Source: Micromonospora pallida
GTDB lineage: Bacteria > Actinomycetota > Actinomycetes > Mycobacteriales > Micromonosporaceae
Assembly: GCF_900090325.1 (NCBI RefSeq)
Contig: NZ_FMHW01000002.1
Location: 496,001-560,000, forward strand
DNA: 64,000 nt
Direction of reading: 5' to 3'
This document shows positions 7,094 to 44,725 of this stretch, one piece after another. The notes below the pieces were generated by a model. That model made no database searches. It was not told the origin of the DNA and was given only the letters and a program-made list of their open reading frames with translations. The translations under genes and the position numbers were made by a program. Each line of letters opens with the position of its first letter. The first letter of the stretch is position 1.

Positions 7094-7115
7094 TGTCACA
7101 CCCACGGCGTACCGT
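7094..7115 (+). promoter_or_regulatory. PafBC/RecA-NDp-like promoter of uvrB
   Basis: TGTC at 7094-7097, then 12 bases, then TACCGT at 7110-7115. This matches the TGTC-N12-TA arrangement of the mycobacterial LexA-independent DNA-damage promoter. The -10 hexamer ends 7 bases before the ATG at 7123, so transcription should start at or within 1-2 bases of the start codon (leaderless). No ribosome binding site is present, which fits. Confidence 0.65.
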
Positions 7116-7122
7116 TGGGGTC

Positions 7123-9225
7123 ATGGCGCTCGACATCCCCCGTCTCGACGGACGTTTCCAGGTCGTCAGCGAGTTCCAGCCGGCCGGCGACCAGCCCGCC
7201 GCCATCGACGAGCTGGAGCGCCGCGTCCGCCGGGGCGACCGGAACAGCGTCCTGCTCGGCGCCACCGGCACCGGCAAGAGCGCCACCACCGCTTGGCTGG
7301 TCGAGCGGCTGCAACGACCGACGCTGGTCCTCGCCCCCAACAAGACCCTCTGCGCCCAGTTGGCCAAGGAGTTCAGCGAGCTGCTCCCGCAGAACGCGGT
7401 CGAGTACTTCGTCTCCTACTACGACTACTACCAGCCTGAGGCGTACATTCCGCAGACCGACACGTACATCGAGAAGGACTCCTCGATCAACGAGGAGGTC
7501 GAGCGGCTGCGGCACTCCGCGACGATGTCGCTGCTCACCCGGCGGGACGTGATCGTGGTGGCCACCGTCTCGGCGATCTACGGCCTGGGCACCCCGGAGG
7601 AGTACCTCGACCGGGCCGTCCGGGTCACCGTCGGGCAGGAGCTGGACCGCGACCAATTGCTGCGTCGCCTGGTCGATATCCAGTACACCCGTAACGACAT
7701 GGCCTTCCAGCGCGGCACCTTCCGGGTCCGCGGCGACACCCTGGAGATCATTCCGGCGTACGAGGAACTGGCCGTCCGGATCGAGCTGTTCGGCGACGAG
7801 GTGGAGAAGCTCTACTACCTCAACCCGCTCACCGGTGACGTGGTGCGCGAGGTCGACCACCTGCTGATCTTCCCGGCCACCCACTACGCCGCCGGTCCGG
7901 AGCGGATGGAACGGGCGATCCGCGACATCGAGACCGAGCTGGCCGAGCGCCTGGCCGAGCTGGATCGGCAGGGCAAGCTGCTGGAGGCACAGCGGCTGCG
8001 GATGCGCACCACCTACGACATCGAGATGATGCGGCAGGTCGGCTTCTGCTCCGGCATCGAGAACTACTCCATGCACATCGACGGTCGGCTGCCAGGCAGC
8101 CCGCCGCACTGCCTGCTGGACTACTTCCCCGACGACTTCCTCACCGTGGTGGACGAGTCGCACGTGACGATCCCGCAGATCGGCGGCATGTACGAGGGCG
8201 ACGCCTCCCGCAAGCGGATGCTGATCGACCACGGCTTCCGGCTGCCCAGTGCGGCCGACAACCGACCGCTGCGCTTCGACGAGTTCCTGGAGCGGGTCGG
8301 CCAGATGGTCTACCTCTCCGCCACCCCCGGCTCCTGGGAGCTGGAGCAGGCCCAGGGCGAGTACGTCGAGCAGGTGATCCGCCCGACCGGCCTGGTCGAC
8401 CCGGAGGTGGTGGTCAAGCCCACCAAGGGGCAGATCGACGACCTGATGCACGAGATCCGGCTGCGGACCGAGCGCGACGAGCGGGTGCTGGTCACCACGT
8501 TGACCAAGAAGATGGCCGAGGACCTCTCCGACTACCTGCTGGAGAACGGCATCCGGGTGCGCTACCTGCACTCCGAGGTCGACACGCTGCGCCGGGTGGA
8601 GCTGCTGCGCGAGCTGCGTAAGGGCGAGTACGACGTCCTGGTCGGCATCAACCTGCTCCGGGAGGGCCTCGACCTGCCCGAGGTCTCCCTGGTGGCGATC
8701 CTCGACGCCGACAAGGAGGGTTTCCTGCGCAGCGGCCGGTCGTTGATCCAGACCATCGGGCGGGCGGCCCGGAACGTCTCCGGCCAGGTGCACATGTACG
8801 CCGACAAGATCACTCCGTCGATGGCCGAGGCGATCGACGAGACCAACCGGCGGCGGGCCAAGCAGATCGCGCACAACGAGGCCCACGGGATCAGCCCCGA
8901 GCCGCTGCGCAAGAAGATCCACGACATCCTGGACGACATCTACCGCGAGGCGGAGGACACCGACAACCGCGTCGGTGGCGCCGTACGGCAACTCTCCCGG
9001 GGCAAGGCTCCGGTCAAGGAGACCCGCAGCCGGTCCCGGGTCACCGCCGGCCCGTCCCGGGAGGGCATGGCCCGCGCTGACCTCGCCCAGCTCATCCAGG
9101 AACTCAACGACCAGATGCTGGCCGCCGCCCGGGAGTTGCAGTTCGAGCTGGCCGCCCGGATCCGTGACGAGGTCGCCGACCTCAAGAAGGAACTGCGCGG
9201 TATGGACGCGGCCGGGGTGAAGTGA
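7123..9225 (+). CDS. uvrB: excinuclease ABC subunit B
   Basis: A 700-residue helicase-like damage-verification subunit of the UvrABC nucleotide excision complex. Walker [12 protein letters not shown] lies near residues 44-54; the beta-hairpin that inserts into DNA shows as [12 protein letters not shown]. Other motifs are the DEAD-like [11 protein letters not shown], motif VYLSATPG, helicase motif [11 protein letters not shown] and a C-terminal UVR domain ([28 protein letters not shown]) that contacts UvrC. The ATG at 7123 fits family length; a longer frame from 7093 would overlap the promoter. uvrA and uvrC, elsewhere in the window, share its promoter type. Confidence 0.98.
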
Positions 9226-9231
9226 CGCGGG

Positions 9232-10074
9232 GTGGGCACACCGGATGACGAGATGGTCGTCGGGGTGCCCCACCCACGGCTGCGCCCATGGGTCGACCGG
9301 TACCTCGGCTACCGGGAACGGGCCGCGCAGCCGCTGGTCCGCCGCCAGGTGGCGGGGGCCTTCGTCGTACTGATCATCGGGTGGGGCGACCCGCTGGACG
9401 TGCTCGTGCCGGGCTCCGCCGAGCGCAGCGCGTACCGGGTCGACTCGTTCGTGGCCGGGACCTTCGACGGCCACTGCCACACCCGTACGGTCGGCCTGGG
9501 CACCGGCGTGGAGCTGCTCCTCACCCCGCTGGCCGCCCGGCGCATTCTCGGCCTGCCGCTGCGGGAGCTGACCAACCGGGCGGTGCCGGCCGACGAGCTA
9601 CCCGGTGGCTGGCTGGCGCGGTTGCGCCTCCGACTGGCCGAGGCCCCGGACTGGCCCCGACGGTTCGCGCTGCTCGACGCGGCGCTGGCCGCCCGGATCG
9701 GCGCCGCCGACCCCGTGGACCCCCGGCTGGAGCGCGCCTGGCAGCGCCTGGTGGACAGCGGTGGCGCGCTCGGCATCGGCGCGCTCGCCGCGGAGGTCGG
9801 GTGGAGTCGACGGCACCTGAGCGTGTTGTTCCACCGGGAGGCGGGACTGCCGCCGAAGACCACCGCCCGGCTGCTGCGCTTCCAGCGGGCGTGCACGACG
9901 ATGACCGGGTGGCGGCCCGACGCGGTGGACTCCGGCCCGGACGGTTGGGCGGAACTCGCCGTGGCCTGCGGGTACTTCGACCAGTCCCACCTGATCCGGG
10001 ACTTCCGGGAGTTCGCCGGGACGACCCCCACCGCTCTGCTGGTCGGGGGATTACATGTGTCCAATCCCGGCTGA
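9232..10074 (+). CDS. AraC-family transcriptional regulator
   Basis: A 280-residue protein whose last ~100 residues form an AraC-type double helix-turn-helix: ALAAEVGWSRRHLSVLFHREAGLPPKTTARLLRFQRA, then the second helix pair ELAVACGYFDQSHLIRDFREFAGTTP. The N-terminal domain resembles the DUF6597/AraC-type ligand-binding domain (PHPRLRPWVDRYLGYRE, GVELLLTPLAARRILG). The GTG at 9232 begins six bases after uvrB; ATG 9253 is an alternative. The VOC protein follows 25 bases downstream, and AraC-VOC pairs of this type are common, so that gene is its likely target. Confidence 0.88.
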   Translation: MGTPDDEMVVGVPHPRLRPWVDRYLGYRERAAQPLVRRQVAGAFVVLIIGWGDPLDVLVPGSAERSAYRVDSFVAGTFDGHCHTRTVGLGTGVELLLTPLAARRILGLPLRELTNRAVPADELPGGWLARLRLRLAEAPDWPRRFALLDAALAARIGAADPVDPRLERAWQRLVDSGGALGIGALAAEVGWSRRHLSVLFHREAGLPPKTTARLLRFQRACTTMTGWRPDAVDSGPDGWAELAVACGYFDQSHLIRDFREFAGTTPTALLVGGLHVSNPG

Positions 10075-10099
10075 ACCCCGCCGCCGCAGACTGGTGCCC

Positions 10100-10468
10100 A
10101 TGCGAACCGTTTACCCGATCCTCACGTACCCCGACGTCCGGGCCGCGATCGACTGGCTCCAGGCGGCGTACGACTGCACCGTCCACGCTGTCCACGAGGC
10201 GCGGGACGGCTCGGTGGCGCACGCCGAACTGCTGCTCGGCACCGGCATGATCATGCTCGGCCCGCAGCGGCATCCCCGCCCCCGTCCGGCCGACGACGAG
10301 TGGTCGCTCTACGTCGCTGTCGACGACGTCGACACCCACTGCGCCAGGGCGCGCGCAGCCGGTGCCGAGATCGTCCGGAAGCCGTCCGACACCGACTACG
10401 GATCGCGGGACTACAGCGCCCGGGACCTGGCCGGGAACGTCTGGGCGTTCGGCACGTACCGGCCGTGA
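10100..10468 (+). CDS. VOC (glyoxalase-fold) protein
   Basis: A 122-residue single-module vicinal oxygen chelate protein: MRTVYPILTYPDVRAAIDWL at the start, VAHAELLLGTGMIMLG in the middle, and YVAVDDVDTHCARARAAGAEIV with DYGSRDYSARDLAGNVWAFG at the end. Related proteins act in antibiotic or bleomycin binding, or as glyoxalase-like enzymes; the substrate is unknown. The usual metal positions are represented by H and E residues, but I cannot confirm a complete metal site. It sits behind the AraC regulator in the same orientation. The ATG at 10100 replaces a longer frame because the domain begins there. Confidence 0.88.
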   Translation: MRTVYPILTYPDVRAAIDWLQAAYDCTVHAVHEARDGSVAHAELLLGTGMIMLGPQRHPRPRPADDEWSLYVAVDDVDTHCARARAAGAEIVRKPSDTDYGSRDYSARDLAGNVWAFGTYRP

Positions 10469-10604
10469 GCGGCCTGGTGCCGACTGGCGGCGCGTGCCGG
10501 CGCGGACCGCCGGAGAAAGCGCCTTACGGCCGTTGTTGCGCTCTGTGAGCGAGGTATTGCGGCGTGTCGCGGGGTGCCCGTACTCTCCGACGGTGGGAGG
10601 CCGG

Positions 10605-11471
10605 ATGCCGCTGTCAACGAGTCCCGTTGTCCGTCGGGCACGCCTGGGCGCGGAGCTGCGCCAACTCCGTCGTCAGGCGGCCCTCACCCTCGATCAGGTC
10701 TGCGAACGGCTCGGCTGGGCCTCCACCTCAAAGCTGTCCCGTATCGAGCTGGGGCAGAGCCGTCCCGACCTGGCCGACGTCTTCGACCTGCTCGACGTCT
10801 ACGAGGTCCCGGCCGAGCGGCGCGAGGCGCTCATCGTCATCGCCCGCGACGCGGCGACCAATCGGAGCTGGTGGAGGGCGCTCGGCGAGATGGGGGAGCG
10901 GCAACGCACCTACGCCGAACTGGAGGCGGGGGCGGCCACCATCTTCGAGTACCAGCCCGCGCTGGTGCCCGGCCTGCTCCAGACCCGGGCGTACGCGCGG
11001 CTGCGGGTGGCCGCCAGCCGGCTCCTCGACCCAGCGGTCGACGTGGAGGCGGACACCCGGGCCCGCGCGGCCCGGCAGGACGTGTTGCACCGGACGGACG
11101 CGCCCCGGTACACCGCCGTTCTCGACGAGGCGGTGCTCACCGGATCCGGCGTCTCCGCGCCGGTGTGGCGGGACCAACTGCGGCATCTGCTGGCGACGGT
11201 CCGGCGGACGAACGTGACGATCCGGGTGCTGCCCCGTGGAGCCACGGTGGCCGGGAGCGCGATGCACCCGCTCACCCCGTTCTCCTGCTACGCCTTCCCG
11301 GACCCGGCCGACCCGCGCACCGTGGTGCTGGAGACGCTCACCACCGACCTCCGGTTGACCGCCGAGCCGGACGTCCGCCGTTACGAACAGCTCGCCGGGT
11401 GGCTGCTCGACGCCGCCCTGTCCGACGCCGACACGGTCGCGCTGCTCGACCGGCACGCCGCCGAGGAATAG
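10605..11471 (+). CDS. XRE-family HTH regulator with DUF5753 domain
   Basis: A 288-residue protein. Residues ~8-75 form an XRE helix-turn-helix (RLGAELRQLRRQAALTLDQV, STSKLSRIELGQSRPDLADV). The rest is DUF5753, with FEYQPALVPGLLQTRAYAR and VRVLPRGATV-like elements. Such proteins are expanded in actinomycetes and normally sit beside a small DUF397 gene acting with them (the BldB/WhiJ-like developmental systems). No DUF397 gene is adjacent here, so it is an orphan. GGTGGGAGG lies just upstream of the ATG at 10605, and TACTCT at about 10581 is a candidate -10. Confidence 0.88.
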   Translation: MPLSTSPVVRRARLGAELRQLRRQAALTLDQVCERLGWASTSKLSRIELGQSRPDLADVFDLLDVYEVPAERREALIVIARDAATNRSWWRALGEMGERQRTYAELEAGAATIFEYQPALVPGLLQTRAYARLRVAASRLLDPAVDVEADTRARAARQDVLHRTDAPRYTAVLDEAVLTGSGVSAPVWRDQLRHLLATVRRTNVTIRVLPRGATVAGSAMHPLTPFSCYAFPDPADPRTVVLETLTTDLRLTAEPDVRRYEQLAGWLLDAALSDADTVALLDRHAAEE

Positions 11472-11564
11472 CCGGCACGCCGTCGCCGGGCCAGGTCCGC
11501 CCCCGGACGTCGTTCCGCCGACGGCCGGTACGTCGACGGCGTCAGACCGCGCCGCCGGCGGCGG

Positions 11565-11614
11565 TCAGGCTGCTTTGTCGACGGCCTCAGGCTGCTTTGT
11601 CGACGGCCTCAGGC
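11565..11614. repeat. 22-bp direct repeat, two copies plus stub
   Basis: TCAGGCTGCTTTGTCGACGG plus CC occurs at 11565-11586 and again immediately at 11587-11608, followed by a further TCAGGC. It lies between the XRE regulator and the ABM gene, just beyond the ABM stop. Confidence 0.85.
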
Positions 11615-11619
11615 CGCTC

Positions 11620-11913
11620 TCAGGCCGGTACGTCGACGAAGTGCTCGACCCGGGGCGGGCCGGCGAAGTGCGGGCCGATCAGGGCCCGCCACTGCTCGAA
11701 CCGTTCGGTGGCCCGGAACTGGAGTTCGTGGGCCTCGACGGAGTCCCACTCGACGAGCAGTACGAACCGCGACGGCGATTCGATCCCCCGGGTCATCCGC
11801 ACCGAGCGGCAGCCGGGGGTGCCGGCGAGGATCGGGTGGCCCTGGGCGTACGCGGCGGCGAACGCCTCCTCGTGTCCGGGCAGTACGTCGATGAGCGCGA
11901 CCTCGAGCACCAT
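11620..11913 (-). CDS. antibiotic biosynthesis monooxygenase (ABM) family protein
   Basis: A 97-residue single ABM domain (dimeric ferredoxin-like fold, YgiN-like): MVLEVALIDVLPGHEEAFAAAY, then GCRSVRMTRGIESPSRFVLLVEWDS and AHELQFRATERFEQWRALIGP. Members include quinol monooxygenases and cofactor-free polyketide oxygenases, but many have no known substrate. The open frame runs 96 codons further upstream through non-coding repeats, so the ATG at 11913 is chosen because the domain starts there. It is convergent with the XRE gene and divergent from terC. Confidence 0.85.
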   Translation of the reverse strand: MVLEVALIDVLPGHEEAFAAAYAQGHPILAGTPGCRSVRMTRGIESPSRFVLLVEWDSVEAHELQFRATERFEQWRALIGPHFAGPPRVEHFVDVPA

Positions 11914-11976
11914 GCCCCGCAGCCTGCCATGTCGGGTGTCGGGCCCACCCGGGGGTAGGCCCTGTCCCATATCAGC

Positions 11977-12051
11977 GGTGCCCTCACCCGACACCCTGCC
12001 CCCTCCTGACACCCAGCCCTCCTTCTGGCACCGTGCCGTCCTCCTGGCACC
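11977..12051 (-). repeat. degenerate 19-bp tandem repeat upstream of the ABM gene
   Basis: Read on the minus strand, four units of about 19 bp follow one another: GGTGCCAGGAGGACGGCAC, GGTGCCAGAAGGAGGGCTG, GGTGTCAGGAGGGGGCAGG, then a GTGTCGGGTGAGGGCACC variant. The shared core is GTG(C/T)CAG(G/A)AGG. The array ends about 64 bp before the ABM start. The rest of 11914-12204 shows no gene. Confidence 0.6.
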
Positions 12052-12204
12052 TAGTCTCCTAGGACGCCGTGCGCGACAGGTGGCGTCCCACACGGTGGGA
12101 GCGCCGGCCGAGAGTGAGACCAGGGTGGCAAGCAAGAGAACGTGATGTGGTCGGCAATCGTCGCCTCGGGAGATGCGCCGGACGGCGTGCATGGTGAACA
12201 ATGA

Positions 12205-12330
12205 CCGCCGAGGAGGGGAGTATCCCTCACGACGGTGTCGTCAGCACGGTCGAACGTCATCCGACGGTCGACCCGGCACCATCGGTCACCGATCCGTTCG
12301 CGGAGCGGTGGCGGGAGAGACCTCCGACAG
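12205..12330 (+). ncRNA. yybP-ykoY manganese riboswitch (candidate)
   Basis: The segment contains the two conserved internal-loop signatures of the yybP-ykoY class: GGGGAGTATCCCTCACGACG near 12215-12234, with GTCGTCAGCACGG following, and GGAGAGACCTCCGAC near 12313-12328. In this class the two loops form the Mn2+ pocket between two coaxial helices. It lies about 100 bp upstream of terC, a family very often controlled by this riboswitch as a metal exporter. The remaining leader (12331-12428) would be the expression platform, with GGAGG just before the terC GTG. Confidence 0.75.
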
Positions 12331-12428
12331 TCACCAGAGTCAGCGTCGCCGGCACACCGAGCCCTGCCATGTCCCTGTGGCCGGGGTTGCGGTGAGCCCG
12401 ACGCTGCGTGTCTGCCGGAGGATAAGCT

Positions 12429-13426
12429 GTGAACGTGTCCGGACTGGTCTGGGCGGGGACCCTGATCGCGCTGACCGCGCTACTGGTCTTCGACCTGTTG
12501 GTGATCGGCCGCCGCCCCATGAACCCAGCGTGCGTGAATCCAGCCTCTGGGTCGGATTCTACGTCGGCCTGGCCCTGCTCTTCGGCGCCGGCCTGTGGGT
12601 GTTCGGCGGCGGCAGGGTAGCGGGGGAGTTCTACACCGGCTGGCTCACCGAGTACAGCCTCTCGGTGGACAACCTCTTCGTTTTCGTGATCATCATGGCC
12701 CGGTTCGCGGTGCCCCGGGAGTTCCAACAGAAGGTGCTGTTGATCGGCATCGTGCTCGCGCTGATCATGCGGGGCGGGTTCATCGCGGCCGGTGCGGCGC
12801 TGATCACGCAGTTCACCTGGGTCTTCTACATCTTCGGCGCGTTCCTCATCTACACCGCGATCAACCTGGCCCGGCAGGGCGAGCCGGACGAGGACGAGTT
12901 CAGCGAGAACGTGCTGATCCGGTGGAGCCGGCGGGCACTGCCGATCTCCCAGGGCTACGACGGCGCGAAGATGACCACGCGGGTGGCCGGCCGTCGGTTG
13001 TTCACCCCGATGCTGATCGTCATGATCGCGATCGGCACCACCGACCTGATCTTCGCGCTGGACTCCATCCCGGCCATCTTCGGCATCACCCAGGAGCCGT
13101 ACCTGGTCTTCACCGCGAACGTCTTCGCGCTGATGGGGCTCCGGCAGCTCTACTTCCTGCTCGGTGGCCTGCTCGACCGCCTGGTCTACCTGAGCACCGG
13201 CCTGGCCGTGGTACTCGGCTTCATCGGCGTCAAGCTGATGCTGGAGGCCCTGGCCGAGAACAACCTGCCGTTCATCAATGGTGGCGAGCACGTGGGCTGG
13301 GCGCCGCACATCCCAATCTGGCTCTCGCTGACGGTCATCCTCGGCACGCTCGCCGTGGCGACGGTCGCCAGCCTGGTCAAGTCCTCCCGGGACCGCCGTC
13401 GCGAGCTGCTCGCCGTCAAGCACTGA
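12429..13426 (+). CDS. TerC/Alx-family membrane protein, -1 frameshift near codon 29
   Basis: A TerC-family integral membrane protein with seven or more helices, linked to manganese export or tellurite resistance. The GTG at 12429, preceded by GGAGG, gives MNVSGLVWAGTLIALTALLV and then LLVIGRRP. From there the family sequence resumes in another frame as HEPSVRESSLWVGFY and continues to the stop with the conserved SVDNLFVF and ALDSIPAIFGIT motifs. The two frames join at a run of four C at 12515-12518, where five would restore one 332-residue frame. Similar single-base losses hit five other coding regions here, so an assembly error is likely. The upstream riboswitch candidate suggests Mn2+ induction. 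Confidence 0.88.
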
Positions 13427-13481
13427 CCGGCGCCCCACCCCACCCCTCACCCCAGCGCTGCCCGGCCGAGCGCCGCCTCTC

Positions 13482-13539
13482 GTGGTTGCAGGGGGCCCTT
13501 CCTCATCAAAAAGCGGTAGGAAGGGTCCCCTGCAACCAC
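13482..13539. terminator. long hairpin after terC
   Basis: GTGGTTGCAGGGGGCCCTTC at 13482 and onward pairs with the arm at 13518-13539 over 22 bp with one G-T wobble. The 14-nt loop holds an AAAAA run. It sits between the convergent terC and NlpC/P60 genes. Confidence 0.8.
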
Positions 13540-13604
13540 CGCAGCCCGCCGCAACCTCTGCAACCTCTGCAACCACCGCAGCCCGCTGCAACCGCCGCAA
13601 CCGC
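13530..13604. repeat. GCAACC-rich direct repeats
   Basis: CTGCAACCACCGCAGCCCGC occurs at 13530-13549 and again at 13567-13586, with further GCAACC hexamers between and after. It links the two terminator hairpins and overlaps the end of the first. Confidence 0.75.
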
Positions 13605-13644
13605 CGCCACTACCCACCGCAACTTCGGGCGGTGGGTAGTGGCG
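13605..13644. terminator. second hairpin between terC and NlpC/P60 gene
   Basis: CGCCACTACCCACC (13605-13618) pairs perfectly with GGTGGGTAGTGGCG (13631-13644) across a 12-nt loop, 14 bp before the NlpC/P60 stop codon on the opposite strand. Confidence 0.7.
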
Positions 13645-13657
13645 AACGCGGGGCGGT

Positions 13658-14578
13658 TCAGACGCGGCGGACGCCGACCAGGGTGGCGGTGCGGTCGTCG
13701 GGGAGGCGTTCCTCGAGCACCCGACGGCGCTGGTAGCAGGCGTGCAGCATGCGGCGGTCGTCGCCGGGACCGGGTGGGGCGGTGACGATGCCCACGTGGT
13801 GGATCGGGCGGTTGGGGCGGGCGAAGAAGTAGAGGTCACCGACGCGTTCCGCGCCGAGCTCCACGGGGGTGGTCGCGGCGGCCTGGTCCCCGGCGTCGCG
13901 GGGCAGCCGTACGCCGAACCGCCGCCAGGCCAGGTGCACCAGGCCGGAGCAGTCGATCCCGGCGGGGGACATGCCGCCCCAGACGTAGACGACGTCGCGG
14001 AGCCGGTCGGCGACGCCGAGCGCCGCGTCCGGGGTCGGGGGATCACCGGGCAGGGGGACGGTGTCCCGGTCGGGGAGCCAGAGCGGTTCGGGGTGGCCGG
14101 GGGCGTACACCGGTCGCCACCCGTCGACGGCTGGCCCGGCGGGGGTGAGCCGGGTGCCGAGGACGACGCCGGGCAGCCGGACGTCGCCGTGGGGGGTGGC
14201 GTGCAGGGCGGTGACGGTGGCGTCGACCACCAGCGGGTCGGTAGGGGAGGGTAGGGCGGCCGGGGCGGCGAGTTGGTCGGTGGGCAGCCAGCCGGGGTAG
14301 CCGTGCGGGTCGAGCCGGGCGGCAGCCTGGTCGACGGCGACGACCCGGGCCCAGCCGTCCGGGCGTACCTCGGTGACCAGCACCTCCTCGCCGAGTAGGA
14401 GTTGGCTCAGCACGCAGTCGCCGACCTGCTGGTCGGTGTCCATGCCGGCGATCCAGGCGACGGTGTCGGGCTTCGGGCCGAGCGCGGGGGCGTCCACCGG
14501 GCGGACCGCCTCCGGGCGGCTCCAGAGGGTCGCGACGGGGACCCGTACGACGGCCCGGTGGTCGGCTCGCAGTTCCAC
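13658..14578 (-). CDS. NlpC/P60 cysteine peptidase with SH3-like domains (murein peptide hydrolase)
   Basis: A 306-residue C40 peptidase. The catalytic Cys is in GIDCSGLVHLAW, the His in HHVGIV, and the YVWGG motif precedes the Cys. The N-terminal two thirds form SH3b-like domains (LRADHRAVVRVPVATLW, GEEVLVTEV, GWARVVAV, GYPGWLPTDQL) as in gamma-D-glutamyl dipeptidases of the YkfC type. There is no signal peptide, so it should act on imported murein peptides in the cytoplasm. The open frame can start at TTG 14632, but GTG 14578 has an ideal GGGAGG four bases upstream and is preferred. It lies downstream of the dipeptide epimerase gene, consistent with joint recycling of L-Ala-D-Glu peptides. 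Confidence 0.87.
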   Translation of the reverse strand: MELRADHRAVVRVPVATLWSRPEAVRPVDAPALGPKPDTVAWIAGMDTDQQVGDCVLSQLLLGEEVLVTEVRPDGWARVVAVDQAAARLDPHGYPGWLPTDQLAAPAALPSPTDPLVVDATVTALHATPHGDVRLPGVVLGTRLTPAGPAVDGWRPVYAPGHPEPLWLPDRDTVPLPGDPPTPDAALGVADRLRDVVYVWGGMSPAGIDCSGLVHLAWRRFGVRLPRDAGDQAAATTPVELGAERVGDLYFFARPNRPIHHVGIVTAPPGPGDDRRMLHACYQRRRVLEERLPDDRTATLVGVRRV

Positions 14579-14635
14579 GTGCCCTCCCAGGAGGCGGGTG
14601 GTCGGCTGCGGTGACCCTACGAAAGATTCCAACGG

Positions 14636-15736
14636 TCAACAACCGGCCTGCTGGGGCTTCACGTCGTCCACCGCCTCGATGCCGAGGCCGGGGGCGTCGG
14701 GGAGCACCACCGTAGGGCCCTCGTAGCGGATGCCGCCACGTACCGGCGACCAGGCCAGCCACCAGGCGGCGTCGAGGTCGGAGACGGCGGTGGTGCCGTG
14801 GGCGGCGACCAGGCTGGCGGCGGCGCCGACGCCGATCTGGCTCTCCATCATCGATCCGACGACGGTGCCGACGCCGTGTGCGGCGGCCAGTTCGAGCAGG
14901 GTACGGGCTGGGCGGAGGCCGCCGGCCTTGGCGAGTTTGACGTTGACCAGGTCGGCGGCGCGGCGGCGGATCACCTCGACCAGGTCGCGGGGGCCGTAGA
15001 CCGACTCGTCGGCGAGGATCGGCAGGTCCACCCGGTCGCTGACCCAGGCCAGCCCGTCCAGGTCCCAGTGGGGGACGGGCTGTTCGACCAGTTCGACGTC
15101 GAGGCCGGCGTCCTCGATGCCGCGGATGACCCGGACCGCCTCGCGGGGCGTCCAGCCCTGGTTGGCGTCGAGACGGATGCGTACCCCGGGGCCAACCGCC
15201 GAGCGGACCGCGCGGACCCGGTCCAGGTCACCGGCGGCGTCGGTGCCCACCTTGAGCTTGAGGACGGTGAAGCCGTCGGCCCTCCGCTGCCGGGCGGTGG
15301 CGGCCAGGTCGACCGCGTCCCCGGCGGAGAGGGTGACGTCGGTGGGGACGCGCCGGCCGGTGCCGCCGAGCAGACGCACCAGCGGTACGCCGAGCCGGCG
15401 GGCGGCGAGGTCGTGCAGGGCGATGTCGACGGCCGCCTTGGCGGCCTCGTTGCCGGCGACGGCGCGTTGGATCTCGGCGCAGCGGGCGTTCAGGTCGTCG
15501 GCGTCCCGGCCGGCGACCAGCGGCCCGAGCATCTCGTGGACGCAGGCCCGGGAGCCGTCGATGGAGGCGCCGGTGACCTGCCAGACCTGTGGGGCCTCGC
15601 CGAATCCGGAGCGCCCCTCGTCGTCGACGATCTCCACGACCAGGGTCTCGACGGTGGTGGTGCGGCGCAGGGCGGTGACGAAGGGCGTGTGTAACGGGGC
15701 GGAGAGCCGGTGGGTGCGCACCGCGGCGATCGTCAT
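14636..15736 (-). CDS. dipeptide epimerase (L-Ala-D/L-Glu epimerase type, enolase superfamily)
   Basis: A 366-residue muconate-lactonizing-enzyme-subgroup protein. Key elements are the KLK catalytic lysine motif (VLKLKVGTD), metal ligands in RLDANQGW, VELVEQPVP and ILADESV, and the second lysine in VNVKLAKAGG. DIALHDLAARRLG and a C-terminal loop complete the barrel. Close relatives epimerise L-Ala-D-Glu from murein to L-Ala-L-Glu. The NlpC/P60 peptidase just downstream supports that substrate over muconate or o-succinylbenzoate. The ATG at 15736 begins MTIAAVRTHRLSAPL, the usual N-terminus. Confidence 0.88.
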   Translation of the reverse strand: MTIAAVRTHRLSAPLHTPFVTALRRTTTVETLVVEIVDDEGRSGFGEAPQVWQVTGASIDGSRACVHEMLGPLVAGRDADDLNARCAEIQRAVAGNEAAKAAVDIALHDLAARRLGVPLVRLLGGTGRRVPTDVTLSAGDAVDLAATARQRRADGFTVLKLKVGTDAAGDLDRVRAVRSAVGPGVRIRLDANQGWTPREAVRVIRGIEDAGLDVELVEQPVPHWDLDGLAWVSDRVDLPILADESVYGPRDLVEVIRRRAADLVNVKLAKAGGLRPARTLLELAAAHGVGTVVGSMMESQIGVGAAASLVAAHGTTAVSDLDAAWWLAWSPVRGGIRYEGPTVVLPDAPGLGIEAVDDVKPQQAGC

Positions 15737-15777
15737 TGCGGCACCCTATAGGGACGTGCGCGGGCAGGGGAGGCCGA

Positions 15778-32659: not shown

Positions 32660-32681
32660 TGTCGTACCCCGGGGCTAGAGT
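32660..32681 (+). promoter_or_regulatory. PafBC/RecA-NDp-like promoter of uvrA
   Basis: TGTC at 32660-32663, 12 bases, then TAGAGT at 32676-32681: the same spacing as at uvrB, uvrC and recQ. Transcription would begin near 32688, giving a leader of about 130 nt that contains the 20-bp repeats. Confidence 0.65.
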
Positions 32682-32721
32682 TGCCGGGGCGCCTTTGCTG
32701 CGCTGACCCGCCCGCTCAGAT

Positions 32722-32801
32722 CGCCTCAGAGTGGGACATGTCGCCTCATCTTTGTGAATAGCGCCTTATCTCCGTGAATACCGCCTCATTCTCGTGAATC
32801 C
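32722..32801 (+). repeat. 20-bp tandem repeats in the uvrA leader
   Basis: Four units start at 32722, 32742, 32762 and 32782. The last three read CGCCTCATCTTTGTGAATAG, CGCCTTATCTCCGTGAATAC and CGCCTCATTCTCGTGAATCC; the first shares only CGCCTCA. They are more AT-rich than their surroundings and end 15 bp before the uvrA GTG. Confidence 0.85.
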
Positions 32802-32816
32802 TGGAGTACTCGGACC

Positions 32817-35759
<2,943 letters not shown>

Positions 35760-36364: not shown

Positions 36365-36393
36365 CCGGCGCCGGGGGATCCACCTGACTGGCG

Positions 36394-36433: not shown

Positions 36434-36478
36434 GCCGTGTCCGGCGGCATCGGGGGTTGCCGCCGGACGGGGGCGGTG

Positions 36479-39400
36479 TCAGTGCTGGTACACCGCCATC
36501 TCCCAGAGCGAGAAGCCGTTCGAGGTGGCCCGGGTCAGGCCGCGCATGCGGACGTACCGGGCGGTCTCGGTGGGGAAGGTGAGCACGTCGGTGCCACCGT
36601 CGGCGGCCGTGGTCGACCAGGCGGTCCGCCAGGTGGTGCCGTCGGTGGAGACCTCGATCCGGTACGACCGCGCGTACGCCGCCTCCCAGGCCAGCACCAC
36701 CCGGCTCACCGGCCGGGCGGAGCCCAGGTCGACGGTGAGCCACTGGTCGTCGGCCCGGGAACTGGACCACCGGGTGCCCAGGTCCCCGTCCACCGCCCGG
36801 CTGGCGGGGAAGCCGAGCTGGTTGCTCGACGCGGTCACCGGCCGCTGCGCGGCCAGGTTGGTCAGGTCGTCGCCGCGCTTCGCCGGGAAGGAGACGACCT
36901 GCTGGTAGGTGGGCCGGTTCTGCCAGGCGGTCGGGGCGTGGCTGATCCCGCCCAGCGGGGACTGCACGATCGCGTCGGCGCACCACTGGTCGCCGGCCGC
37001 GCAGGTGCTGTCCCCGGGGTAGGTCTGGGTGGCCGGGGTGGCCGCCGCCGCGCCGAGCGTGTCGAGCAGGATCTGCCGGCAGCCGGCGAGGGCGCCGTTG
37101 CCGCAGTGGGTGCGGCCGAGGCCACCGGCGACCGGGTCGCCGAGCACCGCGCGCAGGTCCTTGTCGACCCAGCCCCACCAACCGTGCTGGAATGCCGAGC
37201 CCTTGTGGGTCTGACCGCTGCTCGCCGACCCGGGCAGGTTCGACTTGTCGCCGGACTGGTGGCCGGAGGGGGACTCGTTGATCGAGAGGGTGTTCACCAG
37301 CGCCTGGTAGAGGTCGTCGCCGAGCGGGGCCTTGAACATGCCCCGGACCAGCAGCGGCCACCAGGCGTCGAAGGTGCGGATCGCCTCGGCGTGCCGGTAC
37401 ACCTTCGAGCCCTTCGCGGTCTCCACCCGCAGCGCGCCGTCCTGCCGCCACGCCCTGAGCCGGCTGATCTCGGTGGCCAGGGTGGGGTCGGTGACCGGCT
37501 GACTCTCCAGCACCCGGATCAGCTCGTCGAGCACCTCGGCTCCGCGCAGGTCGGTCAGGCCGGCCCGCTGCACCAGCGCGGTCAGCGAGGCCCGGTCGAA
37601 CTTCTGCCCGGCCGCGATGGCCGCCTTGATCGGCTTGTCGAGCAGGTCGCCCCGGTGCACCGCGCCGAAGCTGAAGTTGCCGTCGGCCGCGCCGAAGTCC
37701 TTGGCCTGCTTGTTGTTCCAACTGATGTAGTAGTCCTGGTTCTTCGACTGCGGATGGGCGGCGAGCGAGGCGTACCGGGCGGTGTTGGTGGCCGGGTCGT
37801 AGCCCTGCCACTCGTACGCCGGCTCGGCCTTCATCGGCAGGCTCGGGTTGGCCCCGGCGGCGCGCAGCGGGTGCAGGCCGGAGTTCAGGTACGCCGACTC
37901 GGTGGAGTTGACGTAGAACCAGTTGAAGGCGTAGTCGACGTTGCCCGCCGAGGCGACGAAGGCGTCGGCGGAGCCCATCAGGGCCGGGTCGTTGAACATC
38001 TGGAAGCCGATCGCGGAGTCGGCCTCGTGCCGGTAGGTGGACCGTAGCTGGGTGAAGGCGTGCGGCCGGCCGGCCACCGTGCCCCGCCAGGCCACCAGGC
38101 CCAGCTTCGTCCGCCAGGCGACCAGCCGGTACGACCCGGCTGGTGTGCCGTCGGCCAGGGTGGGCTGCCACGCGTTGACGTGGGACAGCTTCTCCATCGG
38201 CAGGCACTGGCCTCGGAACAGGTAGTGGTCGCTGGTCGGCGTCGGCGCGCTGCCGTCGGGGGTGCAGAGCGGCACCGCGTACGTGTCGGTGATGTCCTGG
38301 ACCGCGGAGGTCGCGCTCCACGCGTAGTCCTGGCCCCGGCCGAGCAGCACGTAGAGGTTCACGCCGGCGAAGGCGGCGCCCCGGGCGCTGATCCCCGGCC
38401 CCTGCAACTCCTGGACCATCAGCAGTTGGGGAGCGAAGTAGCCGGTCTGCGGGCCGAGCACGGCGATCGGATGCCCGGTCGCGGAGTGCGCGGCGGAGAC
38501 CACGGCGGCGTTGGACATGCCCCGGTGGGCCGGGCTGATGGTCAGCCCGGAGAGCGCGGCGGCCAGGTCAGCGCCCCGGGTGGGGGCGTTGCTGCCGGCG
38601 GAGCCGGTGGGGTCGGTGAAGACCGGCTCGGGGCGGGCCGAGCCGGCGTCGGGCAGCGCCACGCTCGGCGCGTTCGGGTCGGCGTTGCCGTACGGGAAGC
38701 TCTGCCCGTCGTGCAGGGTCAGCACGGTCTCCGGGTCGTTCTCCCCCCGGAACGCGTTCCACACCCGGTCGCCCTCGGTCGGGCCGTACTTCGCCCGGGC
38801 GGCGATCCGGACCAGCGCGGACTGCATCTCGGTGCCGCCCCCGCCGCCGAAGAGACCGCCGACCACCCCGGCGATGGCGATCAGGTCGGTCATCGTGAAC
38901 GGCTCCGGGCCGCCCTCGTTGGTGAGCGGGTCGAGGTGCCCGGTCAGTACGTACTCGCCGGGGCAGTTCCAGTCGTCCATGCAGTCCTGGACGTAGGCGT
39001 TGATGCCGGCGATGTAGTCCCGTACGTCGGTGTAGAGCTGCTCGCCGCGCGGGCCCTTGGCGCGCAACGCGTCGACCTGGGCCTGGAGGTCGGCCTCGGT
39101 GTACGGCGAGTTGCGCCACACGCTCTGCTCCAGGGCCCGGTTGCCGGGCGCCCCGCCGGCGAACGGGGTGAGGGTGCCCCGCCCGACGTGGCGGAGCAGG
39201 TCGATGGTGAACAGCCGGTCCTCGGCACCGGCGTACCCGGCGCCGTACATGGTGCCGCCGCGGGTGGTGCCGGTGATGTGCGGGATGCCGGTGGTCTTGT
39301 CCCGCACGATCCGGACGTCCGCGCGGGGTGAGTACTCCCGCTCGACCTGGCTGGGCGGTACGCCGAAGGAGGCGTCGTTGAAGAAGGCGCCGATCTGGTC

Positions 39401-39715
39401 CGGACGCAGCCCGGCGTAGCCGTAGACGAGGTCGGTGTACCGGCCGAGCTGGTCGCCGGAGTGCCGGGGCATGGTGCCGAGGGTCTGGTGGGCGAGGATC
39501 TCGACCAGGGTGGCGTTGCCGTTCTGGCCGGGCGGCACGATGTCGCCGCACTCGCCCAGGCAGTAGTCGTTGGCCGCGAAGGTGGTGGTGGCCTTCGGGG
39601 CGGCGGCGGGTGCGCCGGCCGCCGGGGGCGGGGCGGGGGAGACGAGCAGGGCGGCGAGGCCGACGGTGGCGGTCACGCCGGCCAGCAGGCGACGGGTGGT
39701 GGCGGGACGGGGCAT
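36479..39715 (-). CDS. secreted penicillin-acylase-family Ntn hydrolase with C-terminal discoidin domain
   Basis: A 1078-residue exported enzyme. The N-terminal 35 residues are a signal peptide (TTRRLLAGVTATVGLAALL). Next comes the alpha-chain region (IVRDKTTGIPHITGTTRGG, GAGYAGAEDRLFTIDLLRH), then the processing site and catalytic Ser in RGMSNAAVVSAAHSATG, and the beta chain (GYFAPQLLMVQEL, FNWFYVNSTES). Residues ~945-1078 form an F5/8 type C (discoidin) domain, SRAVDGDLGTRWSSS through YVRMRGLTRAT, likely to bind carbohydrate. Family members cleave penicillins, acyl-homoserine lactones or lipopeptide acyl chains. Met before the catalytic Ser replaces the usual Gly; the substrate is unknown. 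It is divergent from the EEP gene. Confidence 0.9.
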   Translation of the reverse strand: MPRPATTRRLLAGVTATVGLAALLVSPAPPPAAGAPAAAPKATTTFAANDYCLGECGDIVPPGQNGNATLVEILAHQTLGTMPRHSGDQLGRYTDLVYGYAGLRPDQIGAFFNDASFGVPPSQVEREYSPRADVRIVRDKTTGIPHITGTTRGGTMYGAGYAGAEDRLFTIDLLRHVGRGTLTPFAGGAPGNRALEQSVWRNSPYTEADLQAQVDALRAKGPRGEQLYTDVRDYIAGINAYVQDCMDDWNCPGEYVLTGHLDPLTNEGGPEPFTMTDLIAIAGVVGGLFGGGGGTEMQSALVRIAARAKYGPTEGDRVWNAFRGENDPETVLTLHDGQSFPYGNADPNAPSVALPDAGSARPEPVFTDPTGSAGSNAPTRGADLAAALSGLTISPAHRGMSNAAVVSAAHSATGHPIAVLGPQTGYFAPQLLMVQELQGPGISARGAAFAGVNLYVLLGRGQDYAWSATSAVQDITDTYAVPLCTPDGSAPTPTSDHYLFRGQCLPMEKLSHVNAWQPTLADGTPAGSYRLVAWRTKLGLVAWRGTVAGRPHAFTQLRSTYRHEADSAIGFQMFNDPALMGSADAFVASAGNVDYAFNWFYVNSTESAYLNSGLHPLRAAGANPSLPMKAEPAYEWQGYDPATNTARYASLAAHPQSKNQDYYISWNNKQAKDFGAADGNFSFGAVHRGDLLDKPIKAAIAAGQKFDRASLTALVQRAGLTDLRGAEVLDELIRVLESQPVTDPTLATEISRLRAWRQDGALRVETAKGSKVYRHAEAIRTFDAWWPLLVRGMFKAPLGDDLYQALVNTLSINESPSGHQSGDKSNLPGSASSGQTHKGSAFQHGWWGWVDKDLRAVLGDPVAGGLGRTHCGNGALAGCRQILLDTLGAAAATPATQTYPGDSTCAAGDQWCADAIVQSPLGGISHAPTAWQNRPTYQQVVSFPAKRGDDLTNLAAQRPVTASSNQLGFPASRAVDGDLGTRWSSSRADDQWLTVDLGSARPVSRVVLAWEAAYARSYRIEVSTDGTTWRTAWSTTAADGGTDVLTFPTETARYVRMRGLTRATSNGFSLWEMAVYQH

Positions 39716-39932
39716 GTGATCCTCCGCTAGCTGGGGATCATGACGGGGATTGCCGGGGCATTACGTGAAGAACATTCGGTTACCGGATGGTAGGCCGGAC
39801 CGCTCAACATTGGAAGACGTCGATCGGGAGTGTCGCCGCTCCGGTGTTGAGTGTGCTGCGTTTGCTCGATAGCCTTCGATCCCCGTGTCGGCGGCGGATC
39901 GGGCGCCGCGCACTGTCGAGAAGGGACACCGG

Positions 39933-40853
39933 ATGTTCGCCGTACGCCTGCTCGCACCCGCCGTGCTGCTCGCCGCCCTGCTTCCCGCGTCGACACCGGC
40001 CGCGGCGGCGTCCGAGCCGGCCGTGGTGTCGGGCGGCTCGGATGCCACCGCAGGCAGCTTCTCGGTGCTCACCTACAACGTCGCCGGCCTGCCCGAACCC
40101 CTCTCCGGCAGCAACCCGGACGTCAACACCCGGCCGATCGGGGAACGGGTCAACGCGTACGACATCGTGCACGTCCAGGAGGACTTCAACTACCACTCCG
40201 ACCTGTACGCCACCGACCGGCACCCGTACCGGACCCGGACCAGCGGCCCGGTGCCCTTCGGCAGCGGCCTGAACACGATGTCGAACCTGCCGTACGCGAA
40301 CTTCCAGCGGATCACCTGGAACCGGTGCGCCGGCACCGACTGCCTCACCCCGAAGGGCTTCACCGCCTCCCGGATCGAGCTGGCCGCGGGGGTGTACGTC
40401 GACTTCTACAACGTGCACGCCAACGCCGGCAGCGATGAGCGGGACCTCGCCGCCCGGCGGGACAACCTCGCCCAGCTCTCGGCGTACATCACGGCCAACT
40501 CCGCCGGCAACGCGGTGATCGTGATGGGCGACCTGAACGTGAAGTACACCCGTACCGGCGACACCATCCGGGAACTGGTCGCGGCCAACGGCCTCACCGA
40601 CGTCTGGGTGCAGCAGGAACGTGGCGGCGTGCCCCCGGCGCTCGGCAGCCCCGCGCTCAACTGCGACCCGGCCAACGTCACCAACGCCTGCGAGGTGGTC
40701 GACAAGATCCTCTACCGGAGCAACTCGTCGGTCCGGCTCCAGCCGACCCGCTACAACAACGAGCACCACCGCTTCCTGGACCCGGCCGGCGAACCGCTGT
40801 CCGACCACTACCCGCACGCCGCCTGGTTCTCCTGGAGCCTCGCCGCCCGGTAG
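39933..40853 (+). CDS. secreted endonuclease/exonuclease/phosphatase-family protein
   Basis: A 306-residue EEP-fold protein with a cleaved signal peptide (about residues 1-28, LAPAVLLAALLPASTPAAAA). Catalytic elements are SVLTYNVAGLPEPL, VHVQEDFNYH (metal-binding Glu), FYNVHANAG, VIVMGDLNVKY (Asp and Asn) and LSDHYPHAAW (terminal Asp-His). Similar secreted proteins include sphingomyelinases, nucleases and phosphodiesterases; the SDHYP ending with the FYNVHA motif leans towards the sphingomyelinase-like group. Its stop is 36 bases before uvrC. ATG 39933 replaces a longer frame at 39885. Confidence 0.87.
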   Translation: MFAVRLLAPAVLLAALLPASTPAAAASEPAVVSGGSDATAGSFSVLTYNVAGLPEPLSGSNPDVNTRPIGERVNAYDIVHVQEDFNYHSDLYATDRHPYRTRTSGPVPFGSGLNTMSNLPYANFQRITWNRCAGTDCLTPKGFTASRIELAAGVYVDFYNVHANAGSDERDLAARRDNLAQLSAYITANSAGNAVIVMGDLNVKYTRTGDTIRELVAANGLTDVWVQQERGGVPPALGSPALNCDPANVTNACEVVDKILYRSNSSVRLQPTRYNNEHHRFLDPAGEPLSDHYPHAAWFSWSLAAR

Positions 40854-40861
40854 CCGAGGGG

Positions 40862-40883
40862 TGTCGGGGGCGGCGACTAGGCT
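40862..40883 (+). promoter_or_regulatory. PafBC/RecA-NDp-like promoter of uvrC
   Basis: TGTC at 40862-40865, 12 bases, TAGGCT at 40878-40883. The hexamer ends 7 bases before the GTG at 40890, so the uvrC mRNA is probably leaderless. No ribosome binding site is visible. Confidence 0.65.
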
Positions 40884-40889
40884 CGGAGC

Positions 40890-42815
<1,926 letters not shown>

Positions 42816-42843
42816 CCTCTGAACGCGTGACCCGCTGACCGAG

Positions 42844-44697
42844 CTACTCCTCGGCGAGTACGGCGAGGAGTTGGTCGCCGTACTTGGCGAGCTTGTTCTC
42901 GCCGACGCCGCTGACCCCGGACAGCTCGGCCAGGCTGGTCGGCGCGTCGGTGGCGATCTGCCGCAGGGTGGCGTCGTGGAAGATCACGTACGCGGGGACG
43001 CCCTGCTCCTTCGCGGTCGCCGCCCGCCATGCGCGCAGCCGTTCGAAGACCGGCGCGGCCTCCGGCGACAGTTCGACGGCGGCGGTCGCGCCGCTGCGGG
43101 CCTTGGCCGACCGGCCGGCCTTCCCGGTTGCCGCCGGGCGTTCCGGCTCGCGGCGCATCGTCACGGTACGCCGCCGGCCCAGCACCTCGGCGCTCGCCTC
43201 GGTGAGCACCAGGGTGCCGTAGTCGCCCTCGACCGCGAGGAGCCCTTCGGCGAGGAGCTGACGGACCACGCCCCGCCACTCGCCCTCGCGCAGGTCGGCG
43301 CCGATACCGAAGGTGCTCAGCGCGTCATGCCGGTGCTGGACGATCTTGTCGTTGCTCCGGCCGAGCAGGATGTCGATGCAGTGCCCGGCGCCGAACTTCT
43401 GGTTCCGTTCCCGGTGCAGCCGGTAGACGGTGGAGAGCAGCTTCTGGGCGGCGATCGTGCCGTCCCAGGATTCCGGCGGCTCCAGGCAGGTGTCGCAGTT
43501 GCCGCAGCCGCCGCTGGCCGGCTGGCCGAAGTATTCCAGGAGCTGCCCACGCCGGCACCGGACCGTCTCGCAGAGGGCGAGCATCGCGTCCAGGTGGGCG
43601 GCGAGGTTACGCCGGTGCGCCGCGTCCCCCTCCGAGGTGTCGATCATCTTGCGCTGCTGCACCACGTCCTGGAGCCCGTACGCCAGCCAGGCGGTCGACG
43701 GCAGGCCGTCCCGCCCGGCGCGGCCGGTCTCCTGGTAGTAGCCCTCCACCGACTTGGGCAGGTCCAGGTGGGCGACGAAGCGGACGTCCGGCTTGTCGAT
43801 GCCCATGCCGAACGCGATCGTCGCCACCATGACGAGGCCGTCCTCGCGGAGGAACCGCTGCTGGTTGGCGGCGCGGGTGGCCCCGTCGAGACCCGCGTGG
43901 TACGGCAGCGCGGCGATGCCGTTGGCGACCAGGAACTCGGCGGTCTTCTCCACCGAGGCCCGGGAGAGGCAGTAGACGATGCCGGCCTCGCCGGCGTGCT
44001 CGTCGCGGAGCAGGGCGAGCAGTTGCTTGCGGGGCTCCCGCTTCGACACGATCCGGTACTGGATGTTCGGCCGGTCGAAGCTGGCCACGAAGTGCCGGGC
44101 CTCGGTCAGCTTGAGTCGGGTGGCGATCTCCTGACGGGTGGCCGAGGTGGCGGTCGCGGTCAGGGCGATGCGCGGCACCCCCGGCCAACGTTCGTGCAGC
44201 ATCGACAGGGCGAGGTAGTCAGGGCGGAAGTCGTGCCCCCACTGCGCGACGCAGTGCGCCTCGTCGATGGCGAACAGGGCGATCCGGCCCCGGTCGAGCA
44301 GGTTCAGGGTGGCCCGGGAGCTGAGCGCCTCCGGCGCCAGGTAGAGCAGGTCGATCTCGCCGGCCACGAACTCCGCCTCGACCAGTGCGCGGGTGTCCAG
44401 GTCGAGCGTGGAGTTGAGGAAGCCGGCCCGGACGCCGACCGCCCGCAGCGCGTCGACCTGGTCCTGCATCAGCGCGATCAGCGGCGAGACCACCACCGCC
44501 ACGCCGTCGCGCAGTAGGGCCGGGATCTGGTAGCAGAGTGACTTCCCGCCGCCGGTCGGCATCAGCACCAGCGCGTCGCCCCCACCGGTCACGAGCTCGA
44601 CGACCTCCTGCTGGAAGCCGCGGAACGAGTCGTAGCCGAAGACCCGCCGCAGCACGTCCAACGGGGTCTCGGTGCGCAGGGCGGTGGGAGAGTCCAT
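42844..44697 (-). CDS. recQ: ATP-dependent DNA helicase RecQ
   Basis: A 617-residue 3'-5' helicase. Walker A is [16 protein letters not shown]; motif [19 protein letters not shown] includes the RecQ aromatic-rich loop; motif III is LTATAT, motif [16 protein letters not shown] and motif [12 protein letters not shown]. The RecQ-Ct domain has the zinc cysteines [11 protein letters not shown] and GCGNCDTC, followed by a winged helix. An HRDC domain lies at ~525-610 ([28 protein letters not shown]). An Ala/Arg linker joins them. Its promoter resembles those of uvrA, uvrB and uvrC. Confidence 0.96.
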
Positions 44698-44703
44698 CGG
44701 GGG

Positions 44704-44725
44704 ATTCTACGGGCGCGGCGTGACC
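44704..44725 (-). promoter_or_regulatory. PafBC/RecA-NDp-like promoter of recQ
   Basis: On the minus strand, GGTC (44725-44722), 12 bases, TAGAAT (44709-44704). One base differs from the TGTC of the three uvr promoters, and the spacing is identical. The hexamer ends 6 bases before the ATG at 44697, so the mRNA is probably leaderless. Confidence 0.5.

Follow-up and report, generated by a model that had tools for sequence, protein, structure and literature searches.

The excision-repair genes uvrB, uvrA and uvrC of Micromonospora pallida are very probably transcribed from promoters of the PafBC type, read by PafBC as in mycobacteria. All three genes lie in the window analysed here, a 64-kb part of the 7.76-Mb genome (contig NZ_FMHW01000002.1, positions 496,001 to 560,000; coordinates below count from the first base of the window). 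A sequence-only reading of the window had proposed four such sites, each a TGTC or GGTC tetramer followed by a TANNNT -10 hexamer, before uvrB, uvrA, uvrC and recQ. All four are found where it placed them, with exactly 12 bases between the tetramer and TA; the promoter assignment stands for uvrA, uvrB and uvrC, where TGTC-N12-TANNNT is conserved, but not for recQ. The features concerned are as follows.

7094 to 7115, plus strand: putative PafBC-type promoter of uvrB, TGTCACACCCACGGCGTACCGT; -26 element TGTCACACC, 12-base spacing, -10 hexamer TACCGT.
7123 to 9225, plus strand: uvrB, ATG start (NCBIfam TIGR00631), predicted from its spacing to be leaderless.
32660 to 32681, plus strand: putative PafBC-type promoter of uvrA, TGTCGTACCCCGGGGCTAGAGT; -26 element TGTCGTACC, -10 hexamer TAGAGT.
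32682 to 32816, plus strand: uvrA leader, 135 bases from the hexamer to the GTG.
32742 to 32799, plus strand: tandem repeat in the uvrA leader, period 20, 2.9 copies.
32817 to 35759, plus strand: uvrA, GTG start (NCBIfam TIGR00630).
40862 to 40883, plus strand: putative PafBC-type promoter of uvrC, TGTCGGGGGCGGCGACTAGGCT; -26 element TGTCGGGGG, -10 hexamer TAGGCT.
40890 to 42815, plus strand: uvrC, GTG start (NCBIfam TIGR00194), likewise predicted to be leaderless.
42844 to 44697, minus strand: recQ, ATG start (NCBIfam TIGR01389), likewise predicted to be leaderless.
44704 to 44725, minus strand: candidate site before recQ with tetramer GGTC, GGTCACGCCGCGCCCGTAGAAT; element GGTCACGCC, -10 hexamer TAGAAT.

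NCBIfam equivalog models give the identities of UvrB, UvrA, UvrC and RecQ. The hexamer is separated from the start codon by 7 bases at uvrB and by 6 at both uvrC and recQ, in agreement with the proposed gap of 6–7 bases, and by 135 bases at uvrA. The pattern KGTC-N12-TANNNT has eight matches in the window against a mean of 2.1 expected, and none of 100 dinucleotide shuffles contained eight or more. TGTC-N12-TANNNT was found within 220 bases upstream of 4 of the 53 window genes and of none of 174 background genes, taken from twelve 20-kb stretches of the same genome. This comparison covers part of a question raised by the sequence-only reading, whether the site is commoner before repair genes than before random ones; so far as it goes, the proposal was not refuted. 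The uvrA, uvrB and uvrC sites lie far beyond chance expectation.

Both the spacing and the tetramer are conserved in the family. We collected the regions upstream of uvrA, uvrB and uvrC from 30 of 31 genomes searched, and of recQ from the 16 genomes with a clear orthologue (at least 73% identity), the M. pallida genome being included in each set. Regions were chosen by protein homology alone and scanned for TGTC-Nk-TANNNT with k from 4 to 20. The 12-base spacing was present in 30/30 regions for uvrA, 30/30 for uvrB and 15/30 for uvrC, while all other spacings together gave 0, 1 and 2 matches, respectively. At N12, TGTC ranked first of all 256 tetramers, occurring in 75 of the 90 uvr regions against 8 for the runner-up, and the reversed pattern was absent from all 106 upstream regions (90 uvr and 16 recQ). 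Likewise, when TGTCRNACC-N{2,14}-TANNNT was searched in the M. pallida genome, 17 of 19 matches had the 12-base spacing from TGTC. Among the uvrC regions that lack TGTC, six carry CGTC and six TGAC at equal spacing, and 9 of these 12 are located 6–7 bases before the aligned start. TGAC (loci L200, L201, L207, L211, L212 and L223; genomes, loci and families are given by our own G, L and f numbers) may be either a tolerated variant or a sign of lost control.

The case of recQ is different. TGTC-N12-TANNNT precedes 4 of 16 orthologues, 3 near the aligned start and 1 at 118 bases; counted by region, TGTC is found in 3/16 up to the aligned start and in 4/16 when the next 60 bases are included. Three other orthologues have CGTC, and M. 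pallida itself has GGTC. With that tetramer and so few TGTC-bearing orthologues, membership of recQ in the regulon is unproven and the PafBC-type promoter proposed for it is not supported; recQ is probably not a member, and an ordinary leaderless promoter is the simpler and likeliest reading.

How closely do the sites follow the mycobacterial element? The published RecA-NDp consensus is tTGTCRgtg-N8-TannnT, with gtg in lower case (PMC5656591), and forms reported for M. tuberculosis are TGTCGG, TGTCAG and TGTCAC (PMC8151990). RGTG follows TGTC or GGTC at none of the four window sites (uvrB TGTCACAC, uvrA TGTCGTAC, uvrC TGTCGGGG, recQ GGTCACGC), and uvrA and uvrB carry TGTCRNACC. Because the published TGTCRGTG tail is missing, we classed the window sites as a RecA-NDp variant: the RecA-NDp layout suggested earlier is borne out at uvrA, uvrB and uvrC as regards TGTC, N12 and TANNNT, but the published box is not. 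Across the 75 family uvr sites, 73 have a purine (A or G) at position 5 and 57 have A at position 7, positions 7–9 reading ACC in 35, AGG in 10, GGG in 6, ACG in 6 and TGG in 4, followed by rarer forms. At one and the same uvrB spot, different genera carry ACACC, GGACC, ATACC, GGTGC, GGTGG or GGGGG, so the forms look interchangeable. The M. pallida genome also mixes them, with 14 RGTG and 17 RNACC matches. Judged from these sites, the -26 element takes a wider range of forms than the published one, about TGTC-R-N-(A/T/G)-S-S.

Genome-wide, TGTC-N12-TANNNT has 103 matches and the reversed pattern 54, so about half of the former may be due to chance. Of 100 matches examined, 79 were intergenic, 10 antisense within genes and 11 sense within genes. 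A same-strand gene begins within 300 bases of 65 intergenic matches, the hexamer standing 6 bases before the start in 13 cases and 7 bases in 7. We annotated 53 of the 65 downstream proteins (50 via Pfam; UvrA, UvrB and UvrC via NCBIfam) and found 16 of repair, recombination, ligase or gyrase type: UvrA, UvrB, UvrC, RecA, DNA polymerase I, a Y-family polymerase, LigA, a UvrD-type helicase, a TRCF (Mfd)-type protein, a LigD-type polymerase, AlkZ-like and HhH-GPD glycosylases, a PD-(D/E)XK nuclease, a GIY-YIG-domain exonuclease and two GyrB-type subunits. The genome has a single pafB-pafC tandem, at about 1.570 Mb (G000:C2) and adjoining tatA-tatC, whose products find their best Protein Data Bank matches in 7p5x (expect value, E, of 9e-68 for PafB and 6e-80 for PafC), with further matches to chains of 9fnd and 6sj9; WYL domains match seven proteins in all, PafB, PafC and five more. 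The homology search that the sequence-only reading had called for turned up one pafBC pair, and its idea of a PafBC regulon in this lineage gains from this pair and from a promoter common to recA, polA, dinB, ligA and others.

The recA gene (L061) also has an SOS-like site with one mismatch, CGTACACGTGTTCG, 142 bases upstream and beside its TGTCGGACC promoter. Dual control of recA is known from mycobacteria, and the arrangement of SOS-like site and PafBC-type promoter seen here resembles it. Between pafC and tatA lies an 82-residue, leaderless-looking gene (L032, 2001–2278) with no Pfam or NCBIfam match; its promoter is of the TGTCGGGGGC type, as at uvrC. In families f1, f2, f5 and f6, TGTCRGTG promoters repeatedly occur in divergent pairs spaced by a few tens of bases (L035, 2001–2022 on the minus and 2089–2110 on the plus strand; also G038, G062, G074, G096 and G139); in M. 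pallida, one side of such a pair stands 6 bases before a SWIM zinc-finger gene. An identical 22-base motif match occurs at G000:C2:2938390 and G000:C2:5424673, with no gene close downstream at either place, and perhaps lies within a repeated element. In the window itself, a further match precedes a regulator gene:

10565 to 10586, plus strand: further TGTC-N12-TACTCT site, 18 bases 5' of the regulator gene.
10605 to 11471, plus strand: XRE/DUF5753 transcriptional regulator (NCBIfam Sco1979 family, score under its cut-off).

Another window match, at 44997, lies 162 bases upstream of a NIT-domain gene; for those at 839 and 62410, no gene is predicted on the same strand in the next 220 bases.

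The spacing alone predicts leaderless starts for uvrB, uvrC and recQ. The same layout recurs in relatives for uvrB and uvrC, which bears out the leaderless arrangement first proposed for them, on the same spacing basis: the uvrB hexamer stands 6–7 bases before the aligned start in 26/30 genomes, and in three others the same distance before an in-frame start codon. The accompanying claim that uvrA alone keeps a leader did not survive. In M. pallida, recA and ligA also have leaders, of 51 and 64 bases, and in 7/30 family genomes a uvrA start codon lies 6–7 bases past the hexamer, either at the aligned start (L276, L277, L278) or through an upstream in-frame GTG (L283, L284, L286, L287). The other 23 uvrA genes have no start codon 6–7 bases past the hexamer, the site being located 46–199 bases upstream. 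Inspection by eye of the final 45 bases of the uvrA leader in a relative of the same genus (L259) did not reveal the repeat. The pafB gene looks leaderless itself, with TAGCGT ending 7 bases before its GTG and no TGTC at N12 (L112, 1044–1059).

To ask how far the variant element extends, we counted both forms in 236 Actinomycetota genomes, taking E<=1e-24 as a good PafC match; shared ancestry is not removed from these counts. In the 128 genomes (39 families) with a good PafC match, TGTCRNACC occurred 731 times against 51 for its reversed pattern, and TGTCRGTG 745 against 46. The corresponding counts were 25 against 28 and 21 against 24 in 58 genomes with weaker PafC matches, and 46 against 63 and 43 against 37 in 50 genomes without a match; pooled over these 108 genomes, TGTCRNACC stood at 71 against 91. 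By family, a mean TGTCRNACC excess of at least 1 was found in 35 of the 38 families in which half or more of the genomes have PafC, and in 3 of 24 others. As a group, TGTCRNACC is enriched only alongside a good PafC match. PafC matches of about E 1e-16 to 1e-23 also occur in frames of about 700–800 residues (f21, f27 and single genomes of f32 and f42), which perhaps encode fused PafB-PafC proteins; these families show no clear excess of either form.

The preferred form varies with lineage. Outside the window's class, genomes with PafC have 577 TGTCRNACC against 33 reversed, and 180 TGTCRGTG against 31. Inside it, RGTG is preferred in f2, f4, f5, f6, f7 and f8, and RNACC in f1 (the window's family) and f3. 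Genus g5 of family f4 is Streptomyces, as judged from PafC homology (79 of the 80 best named relatives), and seven g5 genomes have 29–70 TGTCRGTG-N8-TANNNT sites each against 0–3 reversed. On the chromosome of S. coeruleorubidus ATCC 13740 there are 56 such sites and no reversed ones; 25 of 30 sites read have a gene within 300 bases, and targets include uvrA, uvrB and uvrC (by their N-termini), ruvC, rarA, a uracil-DNA-glycosylase type and ogt. The recA gene of S. rimosus reportedly has a RecA-NDp promoter. SCO6735 of S. coelicolor is UV-inducible and has such a promoter (PMC5087735). A study of S. venezuelae left open whether Streptomyces has a PafBC-type response, since its initial search pointed against conservation of the M. 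smegmatis motif (PMC9380542); the Streptomyces TGTCRGTG counts bear upon that remark.

In six genomes of deep lineages we read 23 TGTCRNACC sites, of which 12 have a gene within 300 bases, 6 of these starting 6–7 bases past the hexamer; since the gene finder relies on M. pallida codon usage, gene calls there are incomplete. Targets were two of RadA type (by domain make-up), NurA, DUF222 and DUF3263 (Pfam) and a DnaB-like protein recognised by eye; the remaining proteins showed no connection with repair. In G016, 16 of 24 sites were fetched (L148–L163), and all stand before genes that begin alike, the one scanned having DUF222 and HNH domains; we rejected these 16 as a regulon and take them as one repeated gene type. 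Their near-identical promoters consist of a TGTCACACC element, a -10 hexamer and then a perfect LexA box, CGAACATATGTTCG, that contains the ATG, a layout that reads as an activator site with a repressor box fused to the start codon. The adjoining LexA box supports the -10 assignment in G016 and the link of the variant element to damage-type control. No paper linking 13E12 with DNA damage and mitomycin was found in the literature searched.

What could set the choice between ACC and GTG? In M. smegmatis PafB, alanine at both outward arginines (R46 and R50) gives the deletion phenotype (PMC6789036). The recognition helix contains F-X-R-x-F-E-R-D-K, where X is Ser45 in M. smegmatis numbering, and we found this helix in 86 of 91 PafB regions. 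When X is S, N, D or E, 18/18 prefer RGTG; when it is R, 31/31 prefer RNACC. The four with Q, the residue of the window's family, prefer RNACC (the window's genome also has 14 RGTG matches), Streptomyces having N or S, H gives 4 RNACC and 1 RGTG, and the single G goes with RNACC. K goes both ways, with 16 RNACC, 10 RGTG and 1 tie among 27, which weakens a one-residue rule. On the PafC tree, S/N/D/E gave 2 supported independent contrasts (mean 1.9 in the expected direction, 0 against) and R gave 8 (mean 2.4 in the expected direction, 0 against, 5.6 without difference); neither set was significant. We hypothesise from these alignments that X follows the preferred promoter form, the independent switches being too few for proof. 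More broadly, and only tentatively, PafBC control may be ancient and phylum-wide with TGTCRNACC as its usual element, TGTCRGTG being derived in one class (with partial parallels in f14, f15 and f28) and the choice tuned by X just before the essential first arginine, such that R would go with ACC, S/N/D/E with GTG, and Q would tolerate both.

How would these promoters work? In mycobacteria, single-stranded DNA in the WYL domains activates, the helix-turn-helix of PafB engages the -26 element and that of PafC contacts sigma domain 4 (PMC11804915); uvrA is called PafBC-dependent in M. smegmatis (PMC10693628). Transferred to M. pallida, single-stranded DNA derived from damage would bind the WYL domains of a PafB-PafC heterodimer. 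PafB would then read the -26 element, TGTC with its degenerate tail, through its helix-turn-helix, while that of PafC would contact domain 4 of the housekeeping sigma factor. RNA polymerase would open the DNA at a TANNNT -10 lacking the usual -35, and transcription would start about 7 bases below it, so that the uvrB and uvrC mRNAs would have the start codon at their 5' ends and that of uvrA a leader. In this scheme we infer PafBC binding, damage inducibility and start sites at these promoters.

Could TGTC be incidental in what are ordinary leaderless housekeeping promoters? TANNNT ends 5–8 bases before the start in 15 of the 174 background genes, none with TGTC-N12, pafB looks leaderless without TGTC, and at recQ, with TGTC in 4/16 orthologues, the incidental reading is the likeliest one. 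For the excision genes we consider it unlikely, as TGTC at exactly N12 is found in 30/30 uvrA and 30/30 uvrB regions and no other tetramer or spacing comes near that count. Control of the three genes by LexA is very unlikely. A LexA peak in chromatin immunoprecipitation and an SOS box were reported at uvrA in S. venezuelae (PMC9380542), and an SOS-like site with one mismatch lies at 40790, 100 bases before uvrC; this site, however, falls inside the preceding predicted gene (39933–40853), and the window has six other SOS-like sites with one mismatch. At both uvrA and uvrB, the stretch that begins 200 bases upstream of the promoter and ends at the gene start contains no CGAAC-N4-GTTCG with up to two mismatches, which speaks against LexA there.

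A different protein might read the sites. ClgR was reported to recognise the same promoter in a mycobacterial study of 2011 (via PMC5656591). With an approximate ClgR probe, we found a ClgR-like protein in M. pallida (G000:C2:4281868-4282083, E 1.5e-27), and each of the 21 genomes sampled from f1–f8 has one too (E 1e-23 or better); E below 1e-15 was seen in the window's class, in f20 and in some f29. In motif-bearing f9, f16, f17, f23, f41, f45, f47 and f50, by contrast, matches are absent or of 5e-5 to 1e-8, as for any XRE protein, and f18 shows no motif excess although it has ClgR-like matches, those listed lying at 1e-11 to 1e-15 with one exception. Being weak or absent in these eight motif-bearing families, ClgR is disfavoured, and we regard it as extremely unlikely to be the reader. 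Alternatively, another WYL regulator or some other activator of like -26 geometry could read TGTCRNACC, leaving only TGTCRGTG to PafBC. Five WYL-domain matches besides PafB and PafC are available in M. pallida, and -26 is also where SiwR, another WYL activator, acts (PMC10693628). Against such a division of labour, the forms vary among relatives at the corresponding position of one gene (uvrB: ACACC, GGACC, ATACC, GGTGC, GGGGG), uvrA, uvrB and uvrC carry TGTCRGTG in S. coeruleorubidus ATCC 13740, and TGTCRNACC tracks good PafC matches and not weaker WYL matches. Because the forms interchange at orthologous uvrB promoters, two motifs with two regulators are disfavoured, and this reading, too, is improbable.

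PafBC thus remains the preferred reader of the uvr promoters, and several observations weigh against it. No window site has the published RGTG tail, TGTC is absent before uvrC in 15/30 relatives, and with 54 reversed-pattern matches many of the 103 genome matches are chance. Some leaderless targets have no obvious repair role (for example a homoserine-kinase-like protein, a GDSL lipase and MarR), and TldD is another target without an evident one. The co-occurrence with PafC is not phylogenetically independent, and the families lacking PafC may represent few deep clades. Finally, neither form is in excess in five genomes with a good PafC match (G015, G043, G133, G145, G156), and six (G013, G019, G020, G090, G157, G159; some assemblies incomplete) have an excess of at least 3 in one form without a good match.

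With the broadened element, the regulon can be predicted for the window's family and for deep lineages, and no test of it there in print was found in the literature searched. The PafB helix residue would offer a one-residue handle on promoter choice by a sigma-adapting activator, and the Streptomyces TGTCRGTG counts bear on the doubt about motif conservation raised in PMC9380542. This kind of promoter is already known; the TGTCRNACC form and its phylum-wide spread are, as far as our searches show, undescribed, and the link to the helix residue is likewise not described in the literature searched, with most subscription papers lying outside that search.

Among known systems, the LexA SOS regulon also comprises damage-inducible repair genes, but LexA is a repressor with a palindromic box, and none was found at uvrA or uvrB within two mismatches. 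SiwR, a WYL activator at -26 (PMC10693628), and AfsR, which acts by sigma adaptation in Streptomyces (PMC11804915), act alike in the -35 to -26 region but on other motifs and targets. The Streptomyces RecA-NDp promoters share the layout, being mostly RGTG where M. pallida mixes RGTG and RNACC. The M. tuberculosis forms (PMC8151990) accommodate uvrC (TGTCGG) and uvrB (TGTCAC) but not uvrA (TGTCGT). The mycobacterial RecA-NDp/P1 promoters have GTG as their tail where ACC, AGG, GGG or rarer forms stand here, and they are like those of the window in TGTC, the purine that follows, the 12 bases to TA, the TANNNT hexamer, the repair genes they precede and the pafBC pair.

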